A model generated the notes under the pieces. The model had not been told where the DNA came from, searched no databases, and saw only the letters and a list, made by a program, of their open reading frames with translations. A DNA stretch of 14,734 bases from Oscillospiraceae bacterium (GTDB taxonomy: Bacteria > Bacillota_A > Clostridia > Oscillospirales > JAAYXM01), in contig JAFQVE010000578.1 in NCBI GenBank assembly GCA_017408185.1, forward strand, positions 1 through 14,734, given 5' to 3'. Position 1 is the first letter of the stretch, and every line of letters begins with the position of its first letter. Position numbers and translations under genes: made by a program. Below, one piece after another: positions 5,084-14,185 of this stretch.

Positions 5084-5086
5084 GTG
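5069..5086 (+). promoter_or_regulatory. Ribosome binding site deciding the GTG start of the giant gene
   Basis: AAAGGAG (5068-5074) lies 9 nt before a GTG codon at 5084. This is the only well-placed start before the open frame. The protein then begins with the repeated RSDYLLK motif, which supports GTG rather than a downstream ATG. Confidence 0.75.
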
Positions 5087-8000
5087 GCAAGATCTGATTA
5101 TCTGTTAAAAGAACACAGAGCAAAGAATAACCGGAACGAAACGAAGAAAGCGGGGACGAGAAGATCTGATTATCTGCTCAAAAATCCGTTGTCTGAAGAT
5201 GGACGCAAAGAAGCTCAGAAGGAACATCGAGCACTTGAGGGCGGACGCAAGGTTGATATTATTTCTGCGAAAGCACGCGAAGATGCGGTGCGGAAGCTTC
5301 GGAATGATTTTGCATTTGCAAAGGATTTTACGGAGAATTTCGGTGCAAGGGCGGCGGCACGTGATGATGCGAGATATTCAAACTATGATGCAGCCACAGC
5401 CGAACTGAATATTGATTCGGCAAAAGAAAAGGAACTTTCGCTGCAGAGAGAACTAAATAAAGCAAGAAGAAGCTCGGATATGAGCAAGCGGACGAGGCTT
5501 AACGAAGAGCTTGCCGAGGCGCGAAAGCTTACAGAACGCTTAGAACGTGAGCGGGAAGAATATTCCGATTATGAGCGCAGAAGTCTTATCAGACAAGGAT
5601 ACAGGGAGCCGACGTTTTCTGATTATTTGAGAGCTCCGATGAAGGGCTATGAACAGATGAAGCTCGGGACGGAGAAATTCAAGGAGATGTCAGGACTCGG
5701 AGGGAATGCAGAGGCTTACGAGGAAAAGCTTAACGGCGAAAAATACAGATATGTGCCGAGAAACGATTTTGAAGGCGCGGTTCTTGAGGGGCTTTCGCAG
5801 ATAGGTACGATGGGTTATGTTACTCTTAATCCGAGGACACTTGCCGGAGCAACAGCTGCAGGCGGAGCTGCGGCGCTTGCCGGGCAGGCGGGGCCACAGG
5901 TGGTTGCACCCGAGGAAATTGTGACTGTTCCTGCGGCAGCTATTACCGGAGCAACGGCGGCGGGTGCGACTGTTATGTATGAAGCCGAGGCGGGACTTGC
6001 TTATGATGAGATGATAAAAAACGGCGTTTCTCCGAATACAGCAAGGAATATCGCGGTTGGAGTAGGAACTGTAAACGCACTCATTGAGTCGGCGCAGATA
6101 GATGAGCTCATAGACATAACGAAGGTTTTGTTAAGAAACAAAGGAACAAAAAGCTTCGGGTTAAAAATGGCAGAGACGTTGACAAAAGCGGGAGTGAGCA
6201 TCACCGGCAACACGCTTGAAGAGGTTGCACAAGAGGGCTCTACAATAGCCGGTGCACAGATTGCGAATAAGGTTGATAAGGGCGAATGGGCGTATACCGG
6301 AGAGGAAGTTGCTGAAAGACTCGGAGACACAGCCAAAAGCGCGGCTATGTCATTCGGAATGCTTACAGCTCCGTCCGTTGCTGTGAACGTAGGAATGAAT
6401 GCAATAGATGCGCGGAAAAATACCGTTGCGTCGGGAGCAGATTTGCGGTATAATGAAGGCAATGAAAGGGGTGTTGTAAATGGACGAGAAGATGAAACAG
6501 GAAATGGAACAGGAGATAGAAGAGTTCGCACAGTCGATTTATCAAAACTCGAACAGCCCGAAGCGCAATATGGAGGAAGCTCGCTTTCTCGCAAGGGCAA
6601 TTATCGAACAACTGTACCTCGGATAACTGACATTTCCGACAAGAGGATAACGGAGACAGACATAGTTGAACCGGCAGAGGGAAGCGTTGGTCAATATGCA
6701 AAAATACAAGCTGACGAATACAACGTGCCATGCCATATTGTAAGCGACGAAGCTTTTGCAAGAGAGGGCATCGGATATGATGCCTATTCGCGCGGAGGAC
6801 AAGTATATATCCGAGAAAGTGCGGATGACAGCAAGAGGGATGCGTACATCCCGCACGAAGTTTCGCACGTGATGAAGCAGACGGGATATGCGCCGTATAT
6901 GGAATTTGTCGGTGATTTGCCTGAAAAGGTGAATATGTCCTCACAAAACACAAGCGAACTGATAGAGAAAGTAGCAAAGCACAGAAAGCTTGAAAACATA
7001 GAATTAACATCGTTGACGCAGGAACAGACTGTAGATTTCTGGGACGAGTTCAATGCTATGGTTTACGGGACGATACAAAAAGCAAAAGCACAAGGGAACA
7101 ATTATGAATGGTACCTCGGAGAGGTTCTGCACGACCTTGACGGGTATGTTGCCGGGATGGACTCGTTACATAACGATTTCAAGGCGCACAATAAGAAGAA
7201 CGCGCCTGCACCCGTTGTACGATCCGCACCGTTTAACGTTATGAGCAACGAGGCGGTTGATGCGAGAAGAACGAGAGAAGCGGGTATCCGCAGTTATTAT
7301 GGCTTTGGCGAACACGGAGCAAGAACGTTTGCCGACGTAATGGATAGCATGCCTGTGGATTCCCTTGCCACAAGAGCGTTTTCTGCGGCATACGAAGCAG
7401 GGCGTACAAATCTTTCTCCGAAACTGGCAGAGCTTAAAACAGACGTTCAGATAAAAGCTTTTGAAGCGGGACTGAAGGATCATAACGCAGAAACCAAGAG
7501 CAAGGAAGAGAATGTGAAAAACGTTGTTTCCCACGGCGACAAGGCGGGATTTGACGGAAACGGCAAGCCTTCCGACGTGACAGAAACAGAGATAGAGATT
7601 GTCGATAAACTTTACAAGGCTATGGGAGTAAAGGGAAGCCTTGCTGACGGGCTGTTGGGAAATGCAGAGCTTAAAACAAACATAGGCATCTCACCCATCG
7701 CAAGAGATTTCCAAAGGGAAGCCGAGATTGACGGCGAAAAGCGCAAGGTATCAATCGTATATCACGCGGCACACGAAATTGCGATGCACAGGCTTATGGA
7801 GCTTGCACCGAAGGAAGGGCAGGCATTCATAAACGCTCTCTATCGGTATATGGGTGTGGACAACGTAAAGAGCCTTGCCGAAGCGAAGAGAGAGGCATAT
7901 GCCGCGCAGGGCGTTGAGATATCTCTTTCCGAAGCTATGGAAGAGGTTGCGGCAAATCAGATTTTAGCTCTTTATAACTGGGATGAAGCAAAGTTTGCCG

Positions 8001-11000
8001 AGGCTGTGGATCGCATCGTAAACGGAAAGAACGAGCAGGCGAAGCAGGGTGCAAGCAAGTTTAAGCAGATTCTCGACTCCATTATTGCGAAGCTCAATTC
8101 CGTTCTTGAAAGTCTCGGTTTGAAGAAACGAGCGGAACTGAACGAGCTTGTGAAGCTACGCGACTTGTTTGAAACTGCATTTGCGGAGGCGGTTGCGAAG
8201 AACAAGGAGATTGCGGCACAGCAGACAACGGCGCAAAAAAACACCTCAGGAGAGGTGAAGCATTCAATACGGCATGGATTTGCTGCGGAAATTGATGCGT
8301 GGGACGGAAAAAGTAAAGTAACGTTCGATGTGGGAACTACTTCAAAGGCGCTGAAGAGTATAGGAATTAAAAATCGTCGAATCGTATGGCACGGCGGGAA
8401 AATATCCGAGATATTGAGAAAACACGAAAACATGAGTAAGGAGATAATAAAACAGGTTCCCGAAATGCTTGAGGAACCGATCGTCGTGTTGAAGTCGCAA
8501 AATTCGGATAGTCGAATAACTGTATTCGGAGAAGTGACAGATATAAAAGGAAACCCTGTTTTAGCCGTGCTTGAGCTTGAACCGACGGCAGGAAACGGTC
8601 GGCTTTTAAATTTAAATATAGTTGCCAGTGCGTATGGGAAAGACAGTAATCCTGCAGGGTTTATAAAAAATAGTGAGTTGTTATATCTCGATGCAAATAA
8701 AAATAGAACCAAAAGTTGGTTGCAGAGCGTCGGGCTCCAATTGCCCTCGGATACAACTACTTTAGGTTCTATAGGTACTATAACATATATTGATGGAAAA
8801 GTCAATATAAAAGGTGTACCATATGAACAGTATATGCAAGGCGTTGAGAATAATGCCGGCAAATCTTCCCAGAAGAGGAACGCCGACAGTAGAGGACACG
8901 AACTGACAGCGGAGCAAAAAAACACCGACCTTTCGGGCGGTGACGTAAAGTCTTCGCTGAAAAACAAGAACTTAACTATAAACAGTCGTATACCTTACAC
9001 TTCTCTTGGTGGGTATATCGCGGTTGCGAAAGGTGACAGTGTTGCGCTTGAGAACCTTGAGTCAGCGGTGAAGACAGTCACGAGAGGGACATACACAAAT
9101 GATGCAACGGGATATAGCGCAAAAATCACGAGTGATACGATAAGCAAAGCGATTAGACCGGCGCGGATAAACGGCACAGAGTTTACAGAAGAGCATATCC
9201 GAAATCTGAACGCAATGATAAAATTGCCCGAGCTGTTCAAGGCAGCTGTCTATGTAGACTCGAAACCGGAACAGAAACCGAAAAACCAAAACAAAGCTAA
9301 TAAGGAATATCATCATTTTGTTGCGCCAGTTCTTATCGGCAACGACACCTATCGTGCGTTGATAACGGCTCGTGAAAAGATTAATTCCAACACACTGTAT
9401 GTTCTTCAGGTTGAGGTTTTGCCCATGCAAAAAAGGCACACTCTCTCGACAGCACAGCAAAAAGCTGGTGGCTCTCGGTTGTTGAGTGTACCTTCTGACG
9501 TAAGTATACCAGATCTTGTCAACGGTGTCAAGATACATAATTACGACACAGGCATTACTGATATATATTCAGGCAAGGACATCAAGTTCTCTCTTAAAGG
9601 AACGAAAGCCACAACCTCAACCGAAGAGAAATTAAACGGAAGAGCTAAACATTCCATCAAAGACTCCGAGGGTCGCACACTTTCCGAAGGTCAGCAGGAA
9701 TATTTCAAAGACTCAAAGGTCAGGGACGAGAACGGAAACCTCAAAGTGGTGTATCACGGAACATCCAAAGGTGGCTTTACTTGGTTTGACACATATGCAT
9801 ACTATTCCAAGTTCGGTTTGTTTGGAAACGGAGCATACTTCACCGAAAACAAAGGCATCGCTGAAGAATACACCAAGAAGGGAAGAGGGAATAATCCGCA
9901 AGTGTACTCGGTGTATTTGAACATTTCCAATCCCATTGATATGGATGAAAAAGCCGACATTGATGCATGGAACGAAGCAATCCGAAAGTCAGGAGAAGAG
10001 ATTGAGTTGTTGCAGGGCGAAAAGACGAATGAACAAGCCTTCAAAAGCATAGTGGAAGACCTTGAATATCTTGAGGTGTATTCTTACGATGCGGCTGAAA
10101 TTGTTCGGAACATCTTTGAGTCTATGGGGTATAACGGAATCACACATATGGGTGGCGGCAGAGTCAACACCAACGGGGAGAAACATCGGGTATGGATAGC
10201 TTTTGAACCTGAACAAATCAAGAATATAGACAACGCCAATCCTACGGCAGATCCCGACATCCGCTTCTCTCTCCGCAATCAGAACGAAGTGTCCTTGCAG
10301 ACAATGACGAATGTGAGAAAAGCGATATCCGACAACGACGTTACTGCATTGGCTAAGTATGCCGAAAAGGGAGTAATAAGCACCGAATATTACAATCAGT
10401 TGGTTGAAAAGTACGGAGCTATTCCCAAAGGCGAAAATCCTCACAGAGACGTTGTAGTGCCGCAAAGAACGGAGAAAAACAAAAAGGTATCTCAGACTGT
10501 CCGAACAATTCTTGAGGCGAAGGCAACGCCTGACGAAGCTGTACCGACCATTGAAAAGATGGTCGAGGACGGTGTATTCTCTTATGATGTTTACACGGAT
10601 AAAGAAGCAATCGCCGATGCAGAGAAAAAGCTCCGGGATGAAGGCTGGGCTGAAAGCTTCAGCAAATGGCTTAATGCGGTAAACAAAGGCAAGGTTACGA
10701 AGAAAACAACCGTTACGGGATGGGCGTTATACAACAATGCTGCAAACATAGCAGCGACTACCACATCGGAAACGGAGCGAAGAGAAGCAGTTCAGACTTC
10801 GCTTACGATTTTAGACGCTATGGTAAAGCATCAGCGGAGCGCGGCGCAAGCTCTGCAGGCGACACGAGTCCTTAAAAAGCTTTCACCGGAAACACAGCTA
10901 TACGGGGTGCAGAAAAGCGTGCAGGCTCTGCAGAAGGAACTTGAGGAAAAATACGGAGACAAAGCACCTGACCTTAAAATTGACGAAGACCTTGCTGAAC

Positions 11001-13261
11001 AGTTCCTCAATGCAAAAACAGAAGAGGAAAGAACGGCGGCAAAGACGGAAATCTACAAAGACATCGGAAAACAAATGCCTTCGCGGTTTGCCGACAAGTG
11101 GAATGCTTGGAGATACCTTGCAATGCTTGGCAATGTGAGAACACACGTCAGAAATGTTGGCGGCAACGCAGGCTTCGCTCCTGTTGTTGTTCTCGGGAAG
11201 GATCTGGCCGCCACGGCAATCGAGTCTGTGGTTTATCTCTTGTCAGGCAAAAAGACTGCAAGAAGCAAGGCTTTTGTGGGCGTAAGCAAGGCTGACAGAG
11301 CGCTCTTGGCAGCGGCGTGGGAAGATTATGCAAACGTTGCCGATGTGATTTCTAACGGTGGCAAGTACAGTGACTTCGCGATGGCGAATAAGGCGATTGA
11401 AGAAGGCAGGCAGATATTTAAGACTAAACCATTGGAGTGGGCGAGAAAAAAGAACAGCGAGCTTCTTGAAATGGAAGATGTGTGGTTTTCCAAACCTCAC
11501 TATGCTTATGCTTTAGCTCAGTATTGCAAGGCGAACAAGATTACGGCAGAACAGCTGAAGCGTGGCAAGGCTTTAGGTGCGGCAAGGGAATACGCAATAA
11601 AGGAAGCGCAGAAAGCTACATATCGTGATACTAACATTTTTTCTCAATTGGTCAGTGAGCTTGGGCGAGTTGACAAGAACGAGGAAAATCTTGCAAAAAA
11701 GGCTTTAAGCACTGTTGCTGTGGGCATACTTCCGTTCCGCAAGACTCCCGCAAATATCTTGGTAAGAGGCGTTGAATACAGTCCGTTAGGTTTACTTAAG
11801 GGAATAACTTGGGATCTCTACCGAGTAAGCAAAGGGGAAATAACGTCAGCTGAAGCGATTGATAATATTTCTGCTGGATTAACCGGAACAGGACTCTTGC
11901 TTCTTGGGTTGCACTTTGCGAAACAGGGGCTTATCAGAGGGCGCGGCGAGGATGACGAAGAGAAAGAGTTCAAAGAGTTAATGGGGCATCAGGCGTATGC
12001 TCTTGAGCTTCCGAACGGCACATCGGTCACATTAGACTGGCTTGCACCTGAAGCTCTTCCGTTCTTCGTCGGCGTAAACATTTGGGAAGCGACAAAAGGT
12101 AAGAAGGAAGAGGTGAACGTCTCAACCATACTTCAGGTTGTAAGCGGCATAACCGAGCCGATGCTTGAAATGTCCTGCTTACAGAGCCTGAACGACGTAT
12201 TTGAAAGCGTTGGGTACGCTTCATCAAATGATATGTCGGGATTAGTTTCTGCTCTGTCAAGCGCAGCAACGAGCTATCTTATGCAAGGTCTTCCGACCAT
12301 TTTCGGTCAAGCGGAACGCACGGGCGAGGAAACCCGAATGACTACCTACACGGAGAAGAATGCTTTCCTCACAAGAGATATGCAATATACTCTCGGCAAA
12401 GCAAGCGCAAAGATTCCGTTTTGGGATTACCACCAAATTCCGTATATTGATGCGTGGGGAAGAAAGGAAGCCTCGGGAAATGCTCTCAAGAGAGGGCTGA
12501 ACAACTTCCTTAACCCTGCATATACGTCTACCATCGAGACAAGCTCAATGGAAAAGGAACTGCTGAGACTCTACGAGAAAACGGGAGAAGGCGGAGTGTT
12601 CCCGGAGAGAGCGGACAAGTATTTCACGGTAGACGGAAAACGCAAGGACCTTACGGCGGAAGAATATGTGAAGTATGCGACTCTGAAGGGAACAAAGTCT
12701 TATGAGTTGGTTTCCGACTTGGTGAAGAGCAAGACGTACAAAAGCCTTTCGGATGAAGAAAAGGCGGAAGCTGTCCGCAAGGCATACGACTATGCAAACC
12801 AAAAAGCTAAGAAAGCCATAGCGAACTACAAGCCTGAAACTTGGGTTACACACGCGGATAAGTTTGGGGACAATGTCAGCAACTTCATCTCGTTCAGAAC
12901 CGAGGTGGGAAGTAAACGAGATGATAACGGCGGTAAGATTTCCAAGCAAGAGGTCGTAGACATCGCTCTTGGTATGGCACAAAGCGACTCCGAGCTTTGG
13001 AATATGTATTTGTCTGAGTACAACTCCAAAGCAGATGTTCATCTGCACGAGTTTGGCATTGAAGGTGAGGATTATATGACCGTCATCAAAAAACTCGATG
13101 TGGTTGATCAACCGAACAAAAGCGGAAAGCTCGGTACATACACCAATGATGAAATCGCGGCGGCTATCTCAATGGTAAGAGGATTGGATAGCAACGAAAG
13201 AGCGGAACTTTGGCAGTCGATGACCGGCTCAACATCAACAAAAAATAATCCGTGGCGATAA
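5084..13261 (+). CDS. Giant phage polyvalent protein: metallopeptidase, MuF_C, LPD3, ART and LPD38-like domains
   Basis: A 2725-residue multidomain protein, probably a virion protein ejected with the DNA and carrying effectors. In order: the RSDYLLK motif twice (3-9, 27-33); a charged coiled coil (about 100-165); hydrophobic Ala/Gly-rich helices (about 230-445) that could insert in membrane; a low-complexity linker (450-525); a zinc-peptidase-like domain with HEVSH (591-595) and possible third ligand E655; a second peptidase-like domain with HEIAMH (897-902) and EE (953-954); a MuF_C-like module (about 1064-1250); an LPD3-like module (about 1297-1450); an ADP-ribosyltransferase-like module (about 1527-1724) with H1558 in YHGT, Y1585 in GAYFTE and FEPEQIK (1707-1713). 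A long helical C-terminus (about 1730-2725) has WRYLAMLGNVRTHVRN..GN and YLMQGLPTIFGQAER blocks typical of LPD38. Motifs are seen; domain names are from memory; ejection is inferred. It ends 8 nt before a strong terminator. Confidence 0.85.
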   Translation: MARSDYLLKEHRAKNNRNETKKAGTRRSDYLLKNPLSEDGRKEAQKEHRALEGGRKVDIISAKAREDAVRKLRNDFAFAKDFTENFGARAAARDDARYSNYDAATAELNIDSAKEKELSLQRELNKARRSSDMSKRTRLNEELAEARKLTERLEREREEYSDYERRSLIRQGYREPTFSDYLRAPMKGYEQMKLGTEKFKEMSGLGGNAEAYEEKLNGEKYRYVPRNDFEGAVLEGLSQIGTMGYVTLNPRTLAGATAAGGAAALAGQAGPQVVAPEEIVTVPAAAITGATAAGATVMYEAEAGLAYDEMIKNGVSPNTARNIAVGVGTVNALIESAQIDELIDITKVLLRNKGTKSFGLKMAETLTKAGVSITGNTLEEVAQEGSTIAGAQIANKVDKGEWAYTGEEVAERLGDTAKSAAMSFGMLTAPSVAVNVGMNAIDARKNTVASGADLRYNEGNERGVVNGREDETGNGTGDRRVRTVDLSKLEQPEAQYGGSSLSRKGNYRTTVPRITDISDKRITETDIVEPAEGSVGQYAKIQADEYNVPCHIVSDEAFAREGIGYDAYSRGGQVYIRESADDSKRDAYIPHEVSHVMKQTGYAPYMEFVGDLPEKVNMSSQNTSELIEKVAKHRKLENIELTSLTQEQTVDFWDEFNAMVYGTIQKAKAQGNNYEWYLGEVLHDLDGYVAGMDSLHNDFKAHNKKNAPAPVVRSAPFNVMSNEAVDARRTREAGIRSYYGFGEHGARTFADVMDSMPVDSLATRAFSAAYEAGRTNLSPKLAELKTDVQIKAFEAGLKDHNAETKSKEENVKNVVSHGDKAGFDGNGKPSDVTETEIEIVDKLYKAMGVKGSLADGLLGNAELKTNIGISPIARDFQREAEIDGEKRKVSIVYHAAHEIAMHRLMELAPKEGQAFINALYRYMGVDNVKSLAEAKREAYAAQGVEISLSEAMEEVAANQILALYNWDEAKFAEAVDRIVNGKNEQAKQGASKFKQILDSIIAKLNSVLESLGLKKRAELNELVKLRDLFETAFAEAVAKNKEIAAQQTTAQKNTSGEVKHSIRHGFAAEIDAWDGKSKVTFDVGTTSKALKSIGIKNRRIVWHGGKISEILRKHENMSKEIIKQVPEMLEEPIVVLKSQNSDSRITVFGEVTDIKGNPVLAVLELEPTAGNGRLLNLNIVASAYGKDSNPAGFIKNSELLYLDANKNRTKSWLQSVGLQLPSDTTTLGSIGTITYIDGKVNIKGVPYEQYMQGVENNAGKSSQKRNADSRGHELTAEQKNTDLSGGDVKSSLKNKNLTINSRIPYTSLGGYIAVAKGDSVALENLESAVKTVTRGTYTNDATGYSAKITSDTISKAIRPARINGTEFTEEHIRNLNAMIKLPELFKAAVYVDSKPEQKPKNQNKANKEYHHFVAPVLIGNDTYRALITAREKINSNTLYVLQVEVLPMQKRHTLSTAQQKAGGSRLLSVPSDVSIPDLVNGVKIHNYDTGITDIYSGKDIKFSLKGTKATTSTEEKLNGRAKHSIKDSEGRTLSEGQQEYFKDSKVRDENGNLKVVYHGTSKGGFTWFDTYAYYSKFGLFGNGAYFTENKGIAEEYTKKGRGNNPQVYSVYLNISNPIDMDEKADIDAWNEAIRKSGEEIELLQGEKTNEQAFKSIVEDLEYLEVYSYDAAEIVRNIFESMGYNGITHMGGGRVNTNGEKHRVWIAFEPEQIKNIDNANPTADPDIRFSLRNQNEVSLQTMTNVRKAISDNDVTALAKYAEKGVISTEYYNQLVEKYGAIPKGENPHRDVVVPQRTEKNKKVSQTVRTILEAKATPDEAVPTIEKMVEDGVFSYDVYTDKEAIADAEKKLRDEGWAESFSKWLNAVNKGKVTKKTTVTGWALYNNAANIAATTTSETERREAVQTSLTILDAMVKHQRSAAQALQATRVLKKLSPETQLYGVQKSVQALQKELEEKYGDKAPDLKIDEDLAEQFLNAKTEEERTAAKTEIYKDIGKQMPSRFADKWNAWRYLAMLGNVRTHVRNVGGNAGFAPVVVLGKDLAATAIESVVYLLSGKKTARSKAFVGVSKADRALLAAAWEDYANVADVISNGGKYSDFAMANKAIEEGRQIFKTKPLEWARKKNSELLEMEDVWFSKPHYAYALAQYCKANKITAEQLKRGKALGAAREYAIKEAQKATYRDTNIFSQLVSELGRVDKNEENLAKKALSTVAVGILPFRKTPANILVRGVEYSPLGLLKGITWDLYRVSKGEITSAEAIDNISAGLTGTGLLLLGLHFAKQGLIRGRGEDDEEKEFKELMGHQAYALELPNGTSVTLDWLAPEALPFFVGVNIWEATKGKKEEVNVSTILQVVSGITEPMLEMSCLQSLNDVFESVGYASSNDMSGLVSALSSAATSYLMQGLPTIFGQAERTGEETRMTTYTEKNAFLTRDMQYTLGKASAKIPFWDYHQIPYIDAWGRKEASGNALKRGLNNFLNPAYTSTIETSSMEKELLRLYEKTGEGGVFPERADKYFTVDGKRKDLTAEEYVKYATLKGTKSYELVSDLVKSKTYKSLSDEEKAEAVRKAYDYANQKAKKAIANYKPETWVTHADKFGDNVSNFISFRTEVGSKRDDNGGKISKQEVVDIALGMAQSDSELWNMYLSEYNSKADVHLHEFGIEGEDYMTVIKKLDVVDQPNKSGKLGTYTNDEIAAAISMVRGLDSNERAELWQSMTGSTSTKNNPWR
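5089..5176 (+). repeat. 16-nt direct repeat coding for RSDYLL
   Basis: AAGATCTGATTATCTG occurs perfectly at 5089-5104 and 5161-5176, 72 nt (24 codons) apart and in the same frame, giving RSDYLLK at residues 3-9 and 27-33. A looser relative (SDYLR) occurs near residue 178. The duplication at the extreme N-terminus suggests a short functional tag, possibly for virion packaging, but that is inference. Confidence 0.75.
6426..6454 (+). promoter_or_regulatory. Promoter-like sequence inside the giant gene
   Basis: TATAAT (6449-6454) is a perfect -10 hexamer, and TTGCGT (6426-6431) is a weak -35 (3 of 6 matches) at the ideal 17-nt spacing. It lies 26 nt before the start of a nested out-of-frame ORF that has its own ribosome binding site. 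TATAAT in the main frame simply encodes Tyr-Asn, so chance is possible. The combination of promoter, ribosome binding site and ORF is what makes it notable. Confidence 0.4.
6480..6626 (+). CDS. Nested 48-residue ORF in the +1 frame of the giant gene
   Basis: An ATG at 6480 opens a 48-codon frame ending in TAA (6624-6626), shifted +1 from the giant gene. The site AAAGGGG (6465-6471) is 8 nt upstream, and a TATAAT box lies further up. The product is acidic at the start (MDEKMKQEMEQEIEEF), then AQSIYQNSNSPKRNMEEARF, then LARAIIEQLYLG. It reads as two amphipathic helices around a polar turn, like many small phage or mobile-element proteins of Clostridia. The overlapping main-frame peptide (residues 466-514) is by contrast low-complexity and Gly/Arg/Asn-rich, between domains. 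Either this is an overlapping gene, or a fragment carrying a small gene was inserted and is now read through in another frame. Expression is not shown; I recognise no family. Confidence 0.45.
   Translation: MDEKMKQEMEQEIEEFAQSIYQNSNSPKRNMEEARFLARAIIEQLYLG
8233..8926 (+). repeat. 13-nt direct repeats flanking the MuF_C-like module
   Basis: GCAAAAAAACACC is found at 8233-8245 and 8914-8926, in the same frame (QKNT in the protein), just before the KHSIR and KSSLK linkers. The two linkers align further: A(x)QKNT, then S-G, then VK-x-S-I/L-R/K. The stretch between them codes for the MuF_C-like module and is AT-richer than its upstream flank. This fits duplication of a linker by insertion or recombination of a domain cassette. 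Confidence 0.6.
8258..10276 (+). other. Recurrent K/R-x-S-L/I-K/R linker motifs between effector modules
   Basis: Five short basic motifs occur at residues 1059-1063 (KHSIR), 1289-1293 (KSSLK), 1501-1505 (KFSLK), 1522-1526 (KHSIK) and 1727-1731 (RFSLR), at 8258-8272, 8948-8962, 9584-9598, 9647-9661 and 10262-10276. They bracket the MuF_C-like, LPD3-like and ART-like modules. Two are preceded by Asp-Ile (DIKFSLK, DIRFSLR). Such '(D)I-R-F-S-L' ends are familiar from other polyvalent proteins. They may be protease sites or hinge tags; the function is inferred. Confidence 0.6.
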
Positions 13262-13269
13262 AAAAAGAG

Positions 13270-13300
13270 AAGGACGAGCGGGAACGCTCGTCCTTTGTTC
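13270..13300 (+). terminator. Strong bidirectional terminator between giant gene and toxin gene
   Basis: AAGGACGAGCG (13270-13280) pairs perfectly with CGCTCGTCCTT (13285-13295) around a GGAA loop. On the plus strand it is followed by TGTTC, a short T tract. On the minus strand the run of six A at 13261-13266 becomes the T tract. It therefore ends the late phage operon and also the convergent toxin gene, whose stop codon is at its edge. Confidence 0.88.
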
Positions 13301-13767
13301 TACGTATGCTTCATTCTCGATCTGCAAACACAAGTGTCATTATCTCCGTGTTCAACATCGTACCATAGAATATAAAAAGTTGAATCAATGATATATCCAT
13401 AGAGTCTGTGTGTCCCCGATATTCGGAGAGAGTATACTGAACCTGACTCTACACGAAGCTCAAACAACCGTTTCCGTGCTCGAGCTGTTAATTCGTCCTC
13501 TTCAATGGAATGATTTTGTTTTTGGCTCACGACAAAAATATCTGCCCACGTTCTGGTTTCCATGCTTTTTAGGTACGGGAGAATTTCTGTCCATATCGCA
13601 CGTCCTACGCGCTCTTCAGCAAGAGCCCATACTTCGGTATCGCACGAATTAAAACACCACGATGGCTTCTTGTCATAAAAACTGTCAGGGTTTTCTTTCC
13701 TGTACACACTTCGCGATGTTGGTAGCGCAACAGTTTTAGGAACTTTCTTCTTTTTAGAGGCTGCCAT
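13300..13767 (-). CDS. Toxin-like protein paired with Panacea antitoxin
   Basis: A 155-residue protein starting MAASKKKKVPKTVALPTSRS. I chose this ATG (13767-13765) rather than a longer 195-residue frame, because the longer start lies deep in the upstream gene and its extra residues look non-coding. The middle holds KPSWCFNSCD, then WTEILPYLKSMETRTWADI and KQNHSI (H86). The C-terminus has YSLRISGTHRLYGY (R115, H120, R121), FYILWYDVEH (W135, D137, H140) and a final KHT. The pattern LRxSGxxRLxG...FYxLWxDxEH....KxHT is one I know from small proteins encoded beside antitoxin genes, possibly RelE/BECR-like RNases. Toxin action is inferred from the partner. It overlaps the antitoxin gene by 14 nt and reads into the shared terminator. 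Confidence 0.7.
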   Translation of the reverse strand: MAASKKKKVPKTVALPTSRSVYRKENPDSFYDKKPSWCFNSCDTEVWALAEERVGRAIWTEILPYLKSMETRTWADIFVVSQKQNHSIEEDELTARARKRLFELRVESGSVYSLRISGTHRLYGYIIDSTFYILWYDVEHGDNDTCVCRSRMKHT

Positions 13768-14185
13768 AGTAAATTGCCATGCTTTCCTTTGTGATAACCC
13801 TGTCACTGCCCATTCCGTCAGGAAGCCCTTCTCTTGTTTCTTTCCACGGGTCTTCCATATGGGTAAGGCGACTAAGCCACTGAGCATCGTGCGCTCCGTA
13901 ATATTCCAAAACCGAGTCTATTGTGTTTTTCTGTTCATCCGTAAGATTTCTGACGTTACCCGGTTCATCATCGGAAGAAACAGAGAATTTCCCTTGTGTA
14001 TTGGCAAACAACTCCTTGCACACCGGTCCATTTGCCCACGCGCGAAATTCCTCGTCAAATAATGGCTCGTCATCCCACACCAGCGCCCACGCTTGGCTAT
14101 AGTAGCACAGCTTTTGAAGCTTCATGGTAGACATTTCCCCTTGTTTTTCAAGTATATACTTTGCAACATCAAACACATTTGCCAT
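13754..14185 (-). CDS. Panacea-domain (DUF4065, SocA/GepA-like) antitoxin
   Basis: A 143-residue protein with the Panacea signature: KYILEKQGEMSTMKLQKLCY, then YSQAWALVWDDEPLFDEEF, then RAWANGPVCKELF (GPV at 53-55). The remaining part is helical (LTDEQKNTIDSVLEYYGAHD, then AQWLSRLTHMEDPWKETREG) and matches the usual C-terminal half of the family, including the L-S-x-x-T-H-x-E-x-P-W motif. Panacea domains are known as antitoxins that neutralise many unrelated toxins; SocA of Caulobacter is a relative. It is the first gene of a two-gene operon, with AAGGAGAGA before the ATG and a consensus promoter further upstream. Its last 14 nt overlap the toxin-like gene, so the two should be coupled and the antitoxin made first. 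Placement after the late operon, on the other strand, suggests an accessory cargo gene. Confidence 0.88.
   Translation of the reverse strand: MANVFDVAKYILEKQGEMSTMKLQKLCYYSQAWALVWDDEPLFDEEFRAWANGPVCKELFANTQGKFSVSSDDEPGNVRNLTDEQKNTIDSVLEYYGAHDAQWLSRLTHMEDPWKETREGLPDGMGSDRVITKESMAIYYGSL

Follow-up and report, generated by a model that had tools for sequence, protein, structure and literature searches.

A putative small gene embedded out of frame in an interdomain linker of a giant polyvalent gene

The closest described counterpart of the arrangement analyzed here is the pair of spanin genes of phage lambda, in which the +1 frame of Rz harbors Rz1; according to the same source, embedded spanin genes are mostly unannotated owing to a bias of gene callers against overlaps (PMC6139136). 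The other relevant group is the polyvalent proteins of phages and conjugative elements. The metallopeptidase domains found in such proteins have been proposed to process them (Iyer et al. 2017, PMC5512222), and several untested possibilities for the control or processing of these giant proteins have been offered (PMC5512222).

Like Rz/Rz1, the locus described here contains a small candidate phage gene that lies wholly within a larger one, on the same strand and in the +1 frame (PMC6139136). The product of the larger gene resembles the polyvalent proteins in being a giant multidomain protein with ART, LPD3, MuF_C and zincin-like metallopeptidase-like domains, and in containing modules that recur in different giant proteins (PMC5512222). 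In contrast to Rz1, the predicted small product is a soluble helical hairpin and not a lipoprotein, with no indication of a role in lysis, and in contrast to Rz, the surrounding gene is a polyvalent one of 8.2 kb, with the overlap in an interdomain linker. Compared with the polyvalent proteins of PMC5512222, in the main text of which the word 'overlapping' does not occur, out-of-frame genes embedded in linkers would be a new element. Embedded genes in polyvalent genes are not reported in the titles and abstract openings of the mostly non-subscription literature on polyvalent proteins, nested or overlapping phage genes, and TnpV in connection with phages.

The window, that is, the whole analyzed stretch of 14,734 nucleotides (contig JAFQVE010000578.1 of an Oscillospiraceae bacterium), looks like a phage late region and encodes an amidase (PF01520) at 184-870. 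Most of it is occupied by the giant gene (Table 1), in which ART-PolyVal, MuF_C and LPD3 all score over the Pfam cut-off, so that several unrelated effector-type domains are combined in one phage polypeptide. An NCBI protein of the same length from an Oscillospiraceae bacterium MAG (P0002) is 100% identical to it over the searched residues 180-800. The N-terminal region of the giant protein (residues about 103-440) is common to many polyvalent proteins and is followed by a low-complexity linker and by a domain with a HEVSH motif (about 517-703). The preliminary description had considered the main-frame peptide low-complexity and interdomain, and indeed the linker ends just before this conserved HExxH domain. 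The motif is kept in three IMG/VR contigs (L001, L027 and L028), and the structural model of the domain, which is of high confidence, points to a likeness to zincins at modest scores. Between the Pfam domains, the giant protein also contains five copies of a [KR]xS[IL][KR] motif, namely KHSIR, KSSLK, KFSLK, KHSIK and RFSLR (8258-8272, 8948-8962, 9584-9598, 9647-9661 and 10262-10276), which are possible cleavage or recombination sites. Downstream, on the minus strand, a SocA/Panacea-type antitoxin gene (PF13274, E 3.5e-18) is followed by an overlapping 195-aa ORF without a Pfam match that is probably its partner, and this pair (13300-14185) is preceded by a perfect TTGACA-16-TATAAT at 14260-14233.

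Table 1. Coordinates of the giant gene and of the elements in and around its linker (positions in the window)
Feature	Position	Strand	Basis
Giant polyvalent gene, 2725 aa, GTG start; MuF_C, LPD3 and ART-PolyVal domains	5084..13261	+	ORF and Pfam
Main-frame linker (VASGADLRYN ... up to the HExxH domain)	6425..6631	+	Alignable with L001 in both frames
TTGCGT, weak -35-like hexamer, 3/6 consensus positions	6426..6431	+	Consensus match
TATAAT, doubling as Tyr-Asn codons of the giant protein; promoter role unsupported	6449..6454	+	Sequence, L001 alignment
Shine-Dalgarno-like AAAGGGG, 8 nt to ATG	6465..6471	+	AAAGGAG at the equivalent position in L001
Embedded ORF, 48 aa, predicted helical hairpin, +1 relative to the giant ORF	6480..6626	+	ORF, L001 comparison, called homologue, AlphaFold2
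Zincin-like HExxH metallopeptidase domain; HEVSH at 6854-6868	6632..7192	+	Motif, model, relatives

The embedded ORF runs from an ATG through 48 codons to a TAA at 6624-6626, is out of frame with and wholly inside the giant gene, and spans residues 466-514 of the giant protein. All elements listed in the preliminary description (TTGCGT, a 17-nt spacer, TATAAT, AAAGGGG, the ATG 8 nt further on and the 48 codons) are found at the reported positions, and the two helices predicted there agree with the AlphaFold2 model (helices 3-23 and 31-47; pLDDT 88.3, with an input of 3 sequences). No family in Pfam, PHROGs or NCBIfam matches the 48-mer over the cut-off or with a convincing E-value. A fold search of the hairpin model against the PDB gave nothing below E 3, a result that does not in itself point to a new fold.

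The presence of such an ORF in a gene of this size is not unusual. When codons were permuted among identical residues (synonymous shuffle) and +1 ORFs of at least 45 codons with an ATG or GTG start and a Shine-Dalgarno match of at least 5 nt were counted, the window gene contained one such ORF, with 0.94 expected per shuffle (P 0.585). For the corresponding gene of L001, the values are one observed and 1.50 expected (P 0.785, or 0.39 with a 6-nt Shine-Dalgarno match). With the 6-nt setting, the gene of L030 contains three such ORFs vs 0.70 expected (P 0.010), and that of L028 two vs 0.54 (P 0.085), both of which are suggestive only. Within the linker stretch of the window (125 codons), the probability of the ORF under synonymous resampling is 0.074, the window satisfying the 5-nt setting only; with at least 5 and at least 6 nt, respectively, it is 0.072 and 0.012 for L001, 0.031 and 0.0095 for L030, and 0.057 and 0.037 for L028. 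Thus, the embedded ORF is not above chance from the window alone and gains significance only through comparison with relatives. The frequency of about one comparable ORF with a ribosome-binding site per gene is in line with an origin as a by-product of composition, whereby the purine-rich Gly/Arg/Glu/Asp/Thr codons of the linker are read in the +1 frame as Glu/Lys/Met/Gln and conservation of the main frame passes similarity on to the second frame. Codons rich in G/R/E/D/T in the linker do produce the acidic +1 helix, and the main-frame linker is itself conserved in two homologues, P0006 and P0021. Given the comparative evidence against it presented below, we consider this explanation rather unlikely.

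The principal comparison is with L001, a contig of another phage and the sole viral contig found by a search with the linker and the HExxH domain (query A1), the giant ORF of which matches P0006. The linkers of the window and L001 align in both frames. At the equivalent place, L001 has a +1 ORF of 60 aa that begins with GTG. GGTATAAT and AAAGGAGTGTTGTAAGTG are in register there, and upstream of the ORF, a TAA, AAAGGAG and GGTATAAT are found in register with the window (TATAAT itself being shared). Read in the +1 frame, the two sequences are VDEKEQKRELTEEELAKEQRIEKLAQVFYRNSKKPGKDSKHLEEARKFARIIISQIEEMD (L001) and MDEKMKQEMEQEIEEFAQSIYQNSNSPKRNMEEARFLARAIIEQLYLG (window). A ribosome-binding site and a start are present in both, as AAAGGGG-8-ATG in the window and AAAGGAG-8-GTG in L001. 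The changes between the two in this region (GGGG to GGAG and ATG to GTG) replace main-frame residues (Gly to Ser and Asn to Ser) yet leave the ribosome-binding site and the start codon intact. The hidden peptides are identical in 24 of 48 aligned residues, and the segments AQ..Y.NS and EEAR..AR.I are unchanged where the main-frame residues differ, which argues against a mere by-product of composition. In a blastp comparison with SEG of 220 alternative-frame ORFs of giant genes, the window/L001 pair is not listed at E 1e-3, and therefore the pairwise similarity is modest.

The +1 conservation was assessed against a null model in which the main-frame residues are fixed and the codon identity is taken from the HExxH domain (50/99). 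Between the window and L001, 19 of the 44 +1 sites of the nested stretch are identical, whereas the simulations gave 10.1-12.1 (P between 0 of 20,000 draws and 0.00135 for identity and <=1.5e-4 for score). A repeat with 8,000 draws gave P 0.0008-0.0020 (identity) and 0.0001-0.0004 (score), and the reverse direction gave 0.0001-0.0014 and 0.0003-0.0019, respectively. For the HExxH domain itself, 55 of 174 +1 identities were observed vs 55.2 simulated under the simplest setting of the null, and the other two settings over-predict them (58.7 and 62.1). This excess over the domain-calibrated null speaks against a composition effect. A stricter null that adopts the codon identity of the nested stretch (0.84) leaves, in both directions, P 0.02-0.17 for score and 0.08-0.25 for identity, values that composition could accommodate.

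In sliding windows across the nested stretch, z reaches 3.7 in +1 and 2.3 in +2, whereas the maxima among 139 overlapping windows of the HExxH domain are 1.5 and 1.2; because +2 is also raised, some of the signal reflects nucleotide conservation in general. Identical residues are encoded by identical codons in 16 of 19 cases in the nested stretch, significantly more often than in the domain (Fisher P 0.010), and codon identity is raised across the linker (25/33). Such high codon identity is the expected effect of a second coding frame, but a DNA or RNA element could also be its source. A conserved element acting as DNA or RNA, such as a recombination junction or a regulatory RNA, would account without any protein for the extra conservation across the linker and for the raised +2 values; in the L028/L030 pair, a stretch described below also has the highest +2 z. 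In both stretches, however, the +1 excess is greater than that in +2, the +2 frame contains stops, and the start region of the embedded ORF is no more structured than shuffled sequences. We therefore regard this explanation as very improbable.

The main frame appears to be constrained as well. Directly upstream of the embedded ORF, 14 residues are kept between the window and L001 with only 9 identical codons. When only the +1 frame was constrained, 3.3-3.8 main-frame stops were expected in the nested stretch and none is observed (P 0.012-0.026); main-frame similarity above this null is borderline (P 0.0075-0.15 for score and 0.05-0.44 for identity). On balance, and judging from these sequence comparisons, both frames look constrained since the two loci diverged, so that the same DNA probably encodes two proteins. 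The alternative raised in the preliminary description, that of a captured gene that is now only a read-through linker, is disfavored by this apparent dual constraint. The core proposal of an overprinted gene with its own ribosome-binding site gains support from the L001 ORF, the +1 excess and a called 45-aa homologue (see below), with the qualification that the excess is weaker under the stricter null.

A profile search with four nested peptides (query A4) retrieved 9 proteins out of 24 candidates: P0001 (the window's own, 44 aa), P0049, and seven relatives of a second family discussed below (P0043-P0048 and P0050). P0049 is a called 45-aa NCBI protein that is 67-69% identical to the hidden peptide of the window, and its existence as a called protein speaks against a composition by-product. 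In addition, the main-frame linker of P0021, a sequence available as protein only, permits a +1 match to the window family with a score of 144.5, compared with <=106 in 500 shuffles and an average of 73 (sd 8.7) for 7228 overlapping windows of giant proteins, the best of which outside three homologous linkers scores 102; the linker of P0021 is a main-frame homologue, and therefore this match is supportive only. The main-frame linker of P0007, another giant protein (residues about 500-600), permits a +1 match to the second family that exceeds the window average by 5.2 sd, which hints at further hidden ORFs.

With regard to the stand-alone homologues sought in the preliminary description, tblastn searches of 50,697 phage records with the window peptide, the L001 peptide and P0049 detected no homologue, and P0049 had no match in 72,556 plasmids either. 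The called proteins, P0049 included, may be stand-alone or nested. The second-family peptides yielded either no match in phages or two weak ones, both in Pseudomonas phages (E 6 and 8), and tblastn with the TnpV-like peptide described below gave no match. Five related viral records contain no copies besides the nested ones. The window peptide and query A2 were also scanned against viral_contigs and confirmed nothing, by a route insensitive enough for A2 to miss even L001, and an exact 34-base piece of the embedded ORF had no match there. Main-frame queries found 0 relatives in viral_contigs, 0 in genome_contigs and none in plasmids, and in phages one weak match to the N-terminal domain and none to the HExxH domain.

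DNA encoding the HExxH domain is available in five IMG/VR contigs, of which L028, L029 and L031 do not differ where they overlap (1400 and 2130 bases) and were counted once. All four distinct sequences with the domain, the window included, contain a +1 ORF with a Shine-Dalgarno sequence in the preceding linker, the chance of which is 0.01-0.07 per linker. The linkers of L027/L030 and L028 encode a different +1 family of 55 and 62 aa, with GGAGGT-7-ATG and a common TDPEYRK (hereafter MQN/TDPEYRK), at the spot equivalent to that in the window, just before the zincin-like domain. The +1 excess of this second family is weak (z about 1-1.9; P 0.001-0.03 for identity and 0.006-0.31 for score).

Yet another +1 ORF, of 85 aa in L030 (G002:C1:15374-15556, minus strand) and 84 aa in L028 (reverse strand from about 12509), is located in a linker of the giant gene behind a strong ribosome-binding site (AAAGGAG/AAAGGAGG). 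It bears a weak likeness to TnpV (PF14198; E 4.6e-4 and 20.6 bits in L030, 0.075 and 13.5 bits in L028), below the curated Pfam cut-off (27 bits), and the window gene showed no ORF of this kind. Among 857 windows across the 4386-codon alignment of the L028 and L030 genes, 13 of the top 14 in +1 overlap the TnpV-like ORF, with z up to 6.0, and the remaining one, elsewhere, has z 3.1; the highest z values in +2 (up to 3.7) fall in this stretch as well. Of 80 residues, 47 are identical in +1, vs a main-frame identity of 0.51 and 23-26 identities under the null (0 of 5,000 draws). The presence of this ORF is not rare (chance 0.12-0.27 per stretch), and its conservation alone stands out. By sequence conservation, the TnpV-like ORF, which lies outside the window, is the cleanest case of a putative hidden +1 gene.

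The alignment of P0021 to the window starts at residue 442, and that of P0006/L001 extends back to 406 with few identities before about 448, so that clear similarity to both runs from near the -35-like element through the HExxH domain. P0027 has 68% identity to the window protein over residues 1355-2725, and its close alignment starts at about residue 713; no counterpart of the linker or the HExxH motif is seen in this alignment. Given this boundary and the P0027 alignment, the linker and the domain look like one cassette. The start of similarity near the promoter-like element, with differing upstream regions, together with small homologues called as proteins elsewhere, would also fit a fossil, that is, a small stand-alone gene, once located before a metallopeptidase gene, that came to be read in another frame as the giant gene arose and is now silent. 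Such a history appears improbable considering that the main frame was apparently under constraint during divergence and that no main-frame stops arose, yet +1 stayed open and similar.

The claim that the ORF has its own promoter and is expressed independently of the late operon was not borne out. Apart from the weak -35, the site is absent from the 26 promoter-like sites identified in a scan of the window (16.0 in shuffles, sd 4.2). TATAAT occurs 9 times in the window vs 5.7 expected, with at least 9 copies in 26 of 200 shuffles, and the Tyr-Asn that it encodes is conserved, with both codons being common (TAT 65-66%, AAT 45-55%). In two of the four distinct linkers (L030 and L028), TATAAT is missing within 120 nt upstream of the ORF, the best hexamer matching 4/6. 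A dedicated promoter is thus unsupported, though not disproved. In a separate search for the promoter and start pattern, 24 of 25 loci were unrelated and were dropped, only L015, on the contig of L001, being related.

Taken together, these comparisons make it likely that ORF 6480-6626 is a real embedded gene. The overall explanation that we consider probable is that of an embedded gene translated by internal initiation on the late mRNA and forming a cassette with the HExxH domain. In the simplest reading, the internal ribosome-binding site would be used for initiation within the giant gene's late mRNA, yielding a 48-residue acidic helical hairpin, whereas the main frame of the same DNA would supply a flexible linker; the small +1 gene and the metallopeptidase domain would then move between giant polyvalent genes as one unit. 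As for its role, the leading guess, although a doubtful one, is that the peptide is a partner of the adjacent metallopeptidase, such as an inhibitor, chaperone or packaging adaptor.

A more general, still speculative possibility, to which we assign somewhat less than even weight, is that linkers of polyvalent genes house hidden genes, with modules bringing their own small out-of-frame gene, much as if an operon were packed within a single ORF; three instances would then be the window ORF, the MQN/TDPEYRK ORF and the TnpV-like ORF. Gene callers tend to discard nested same-strand ORFs, as noted for spanins (PMC6139136), and phage annotations would therefore lack genes of this kind. Should the small gene and the metallopeptidase be partners, the linker would offer a direct handle on the control or processing of the giant protein. 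If the possibility of hidden genes holds, linkers set aside as low-complexity would carry coding information in two frames, and the shuffling of a domain into a giant gene would also bring in its small partner.
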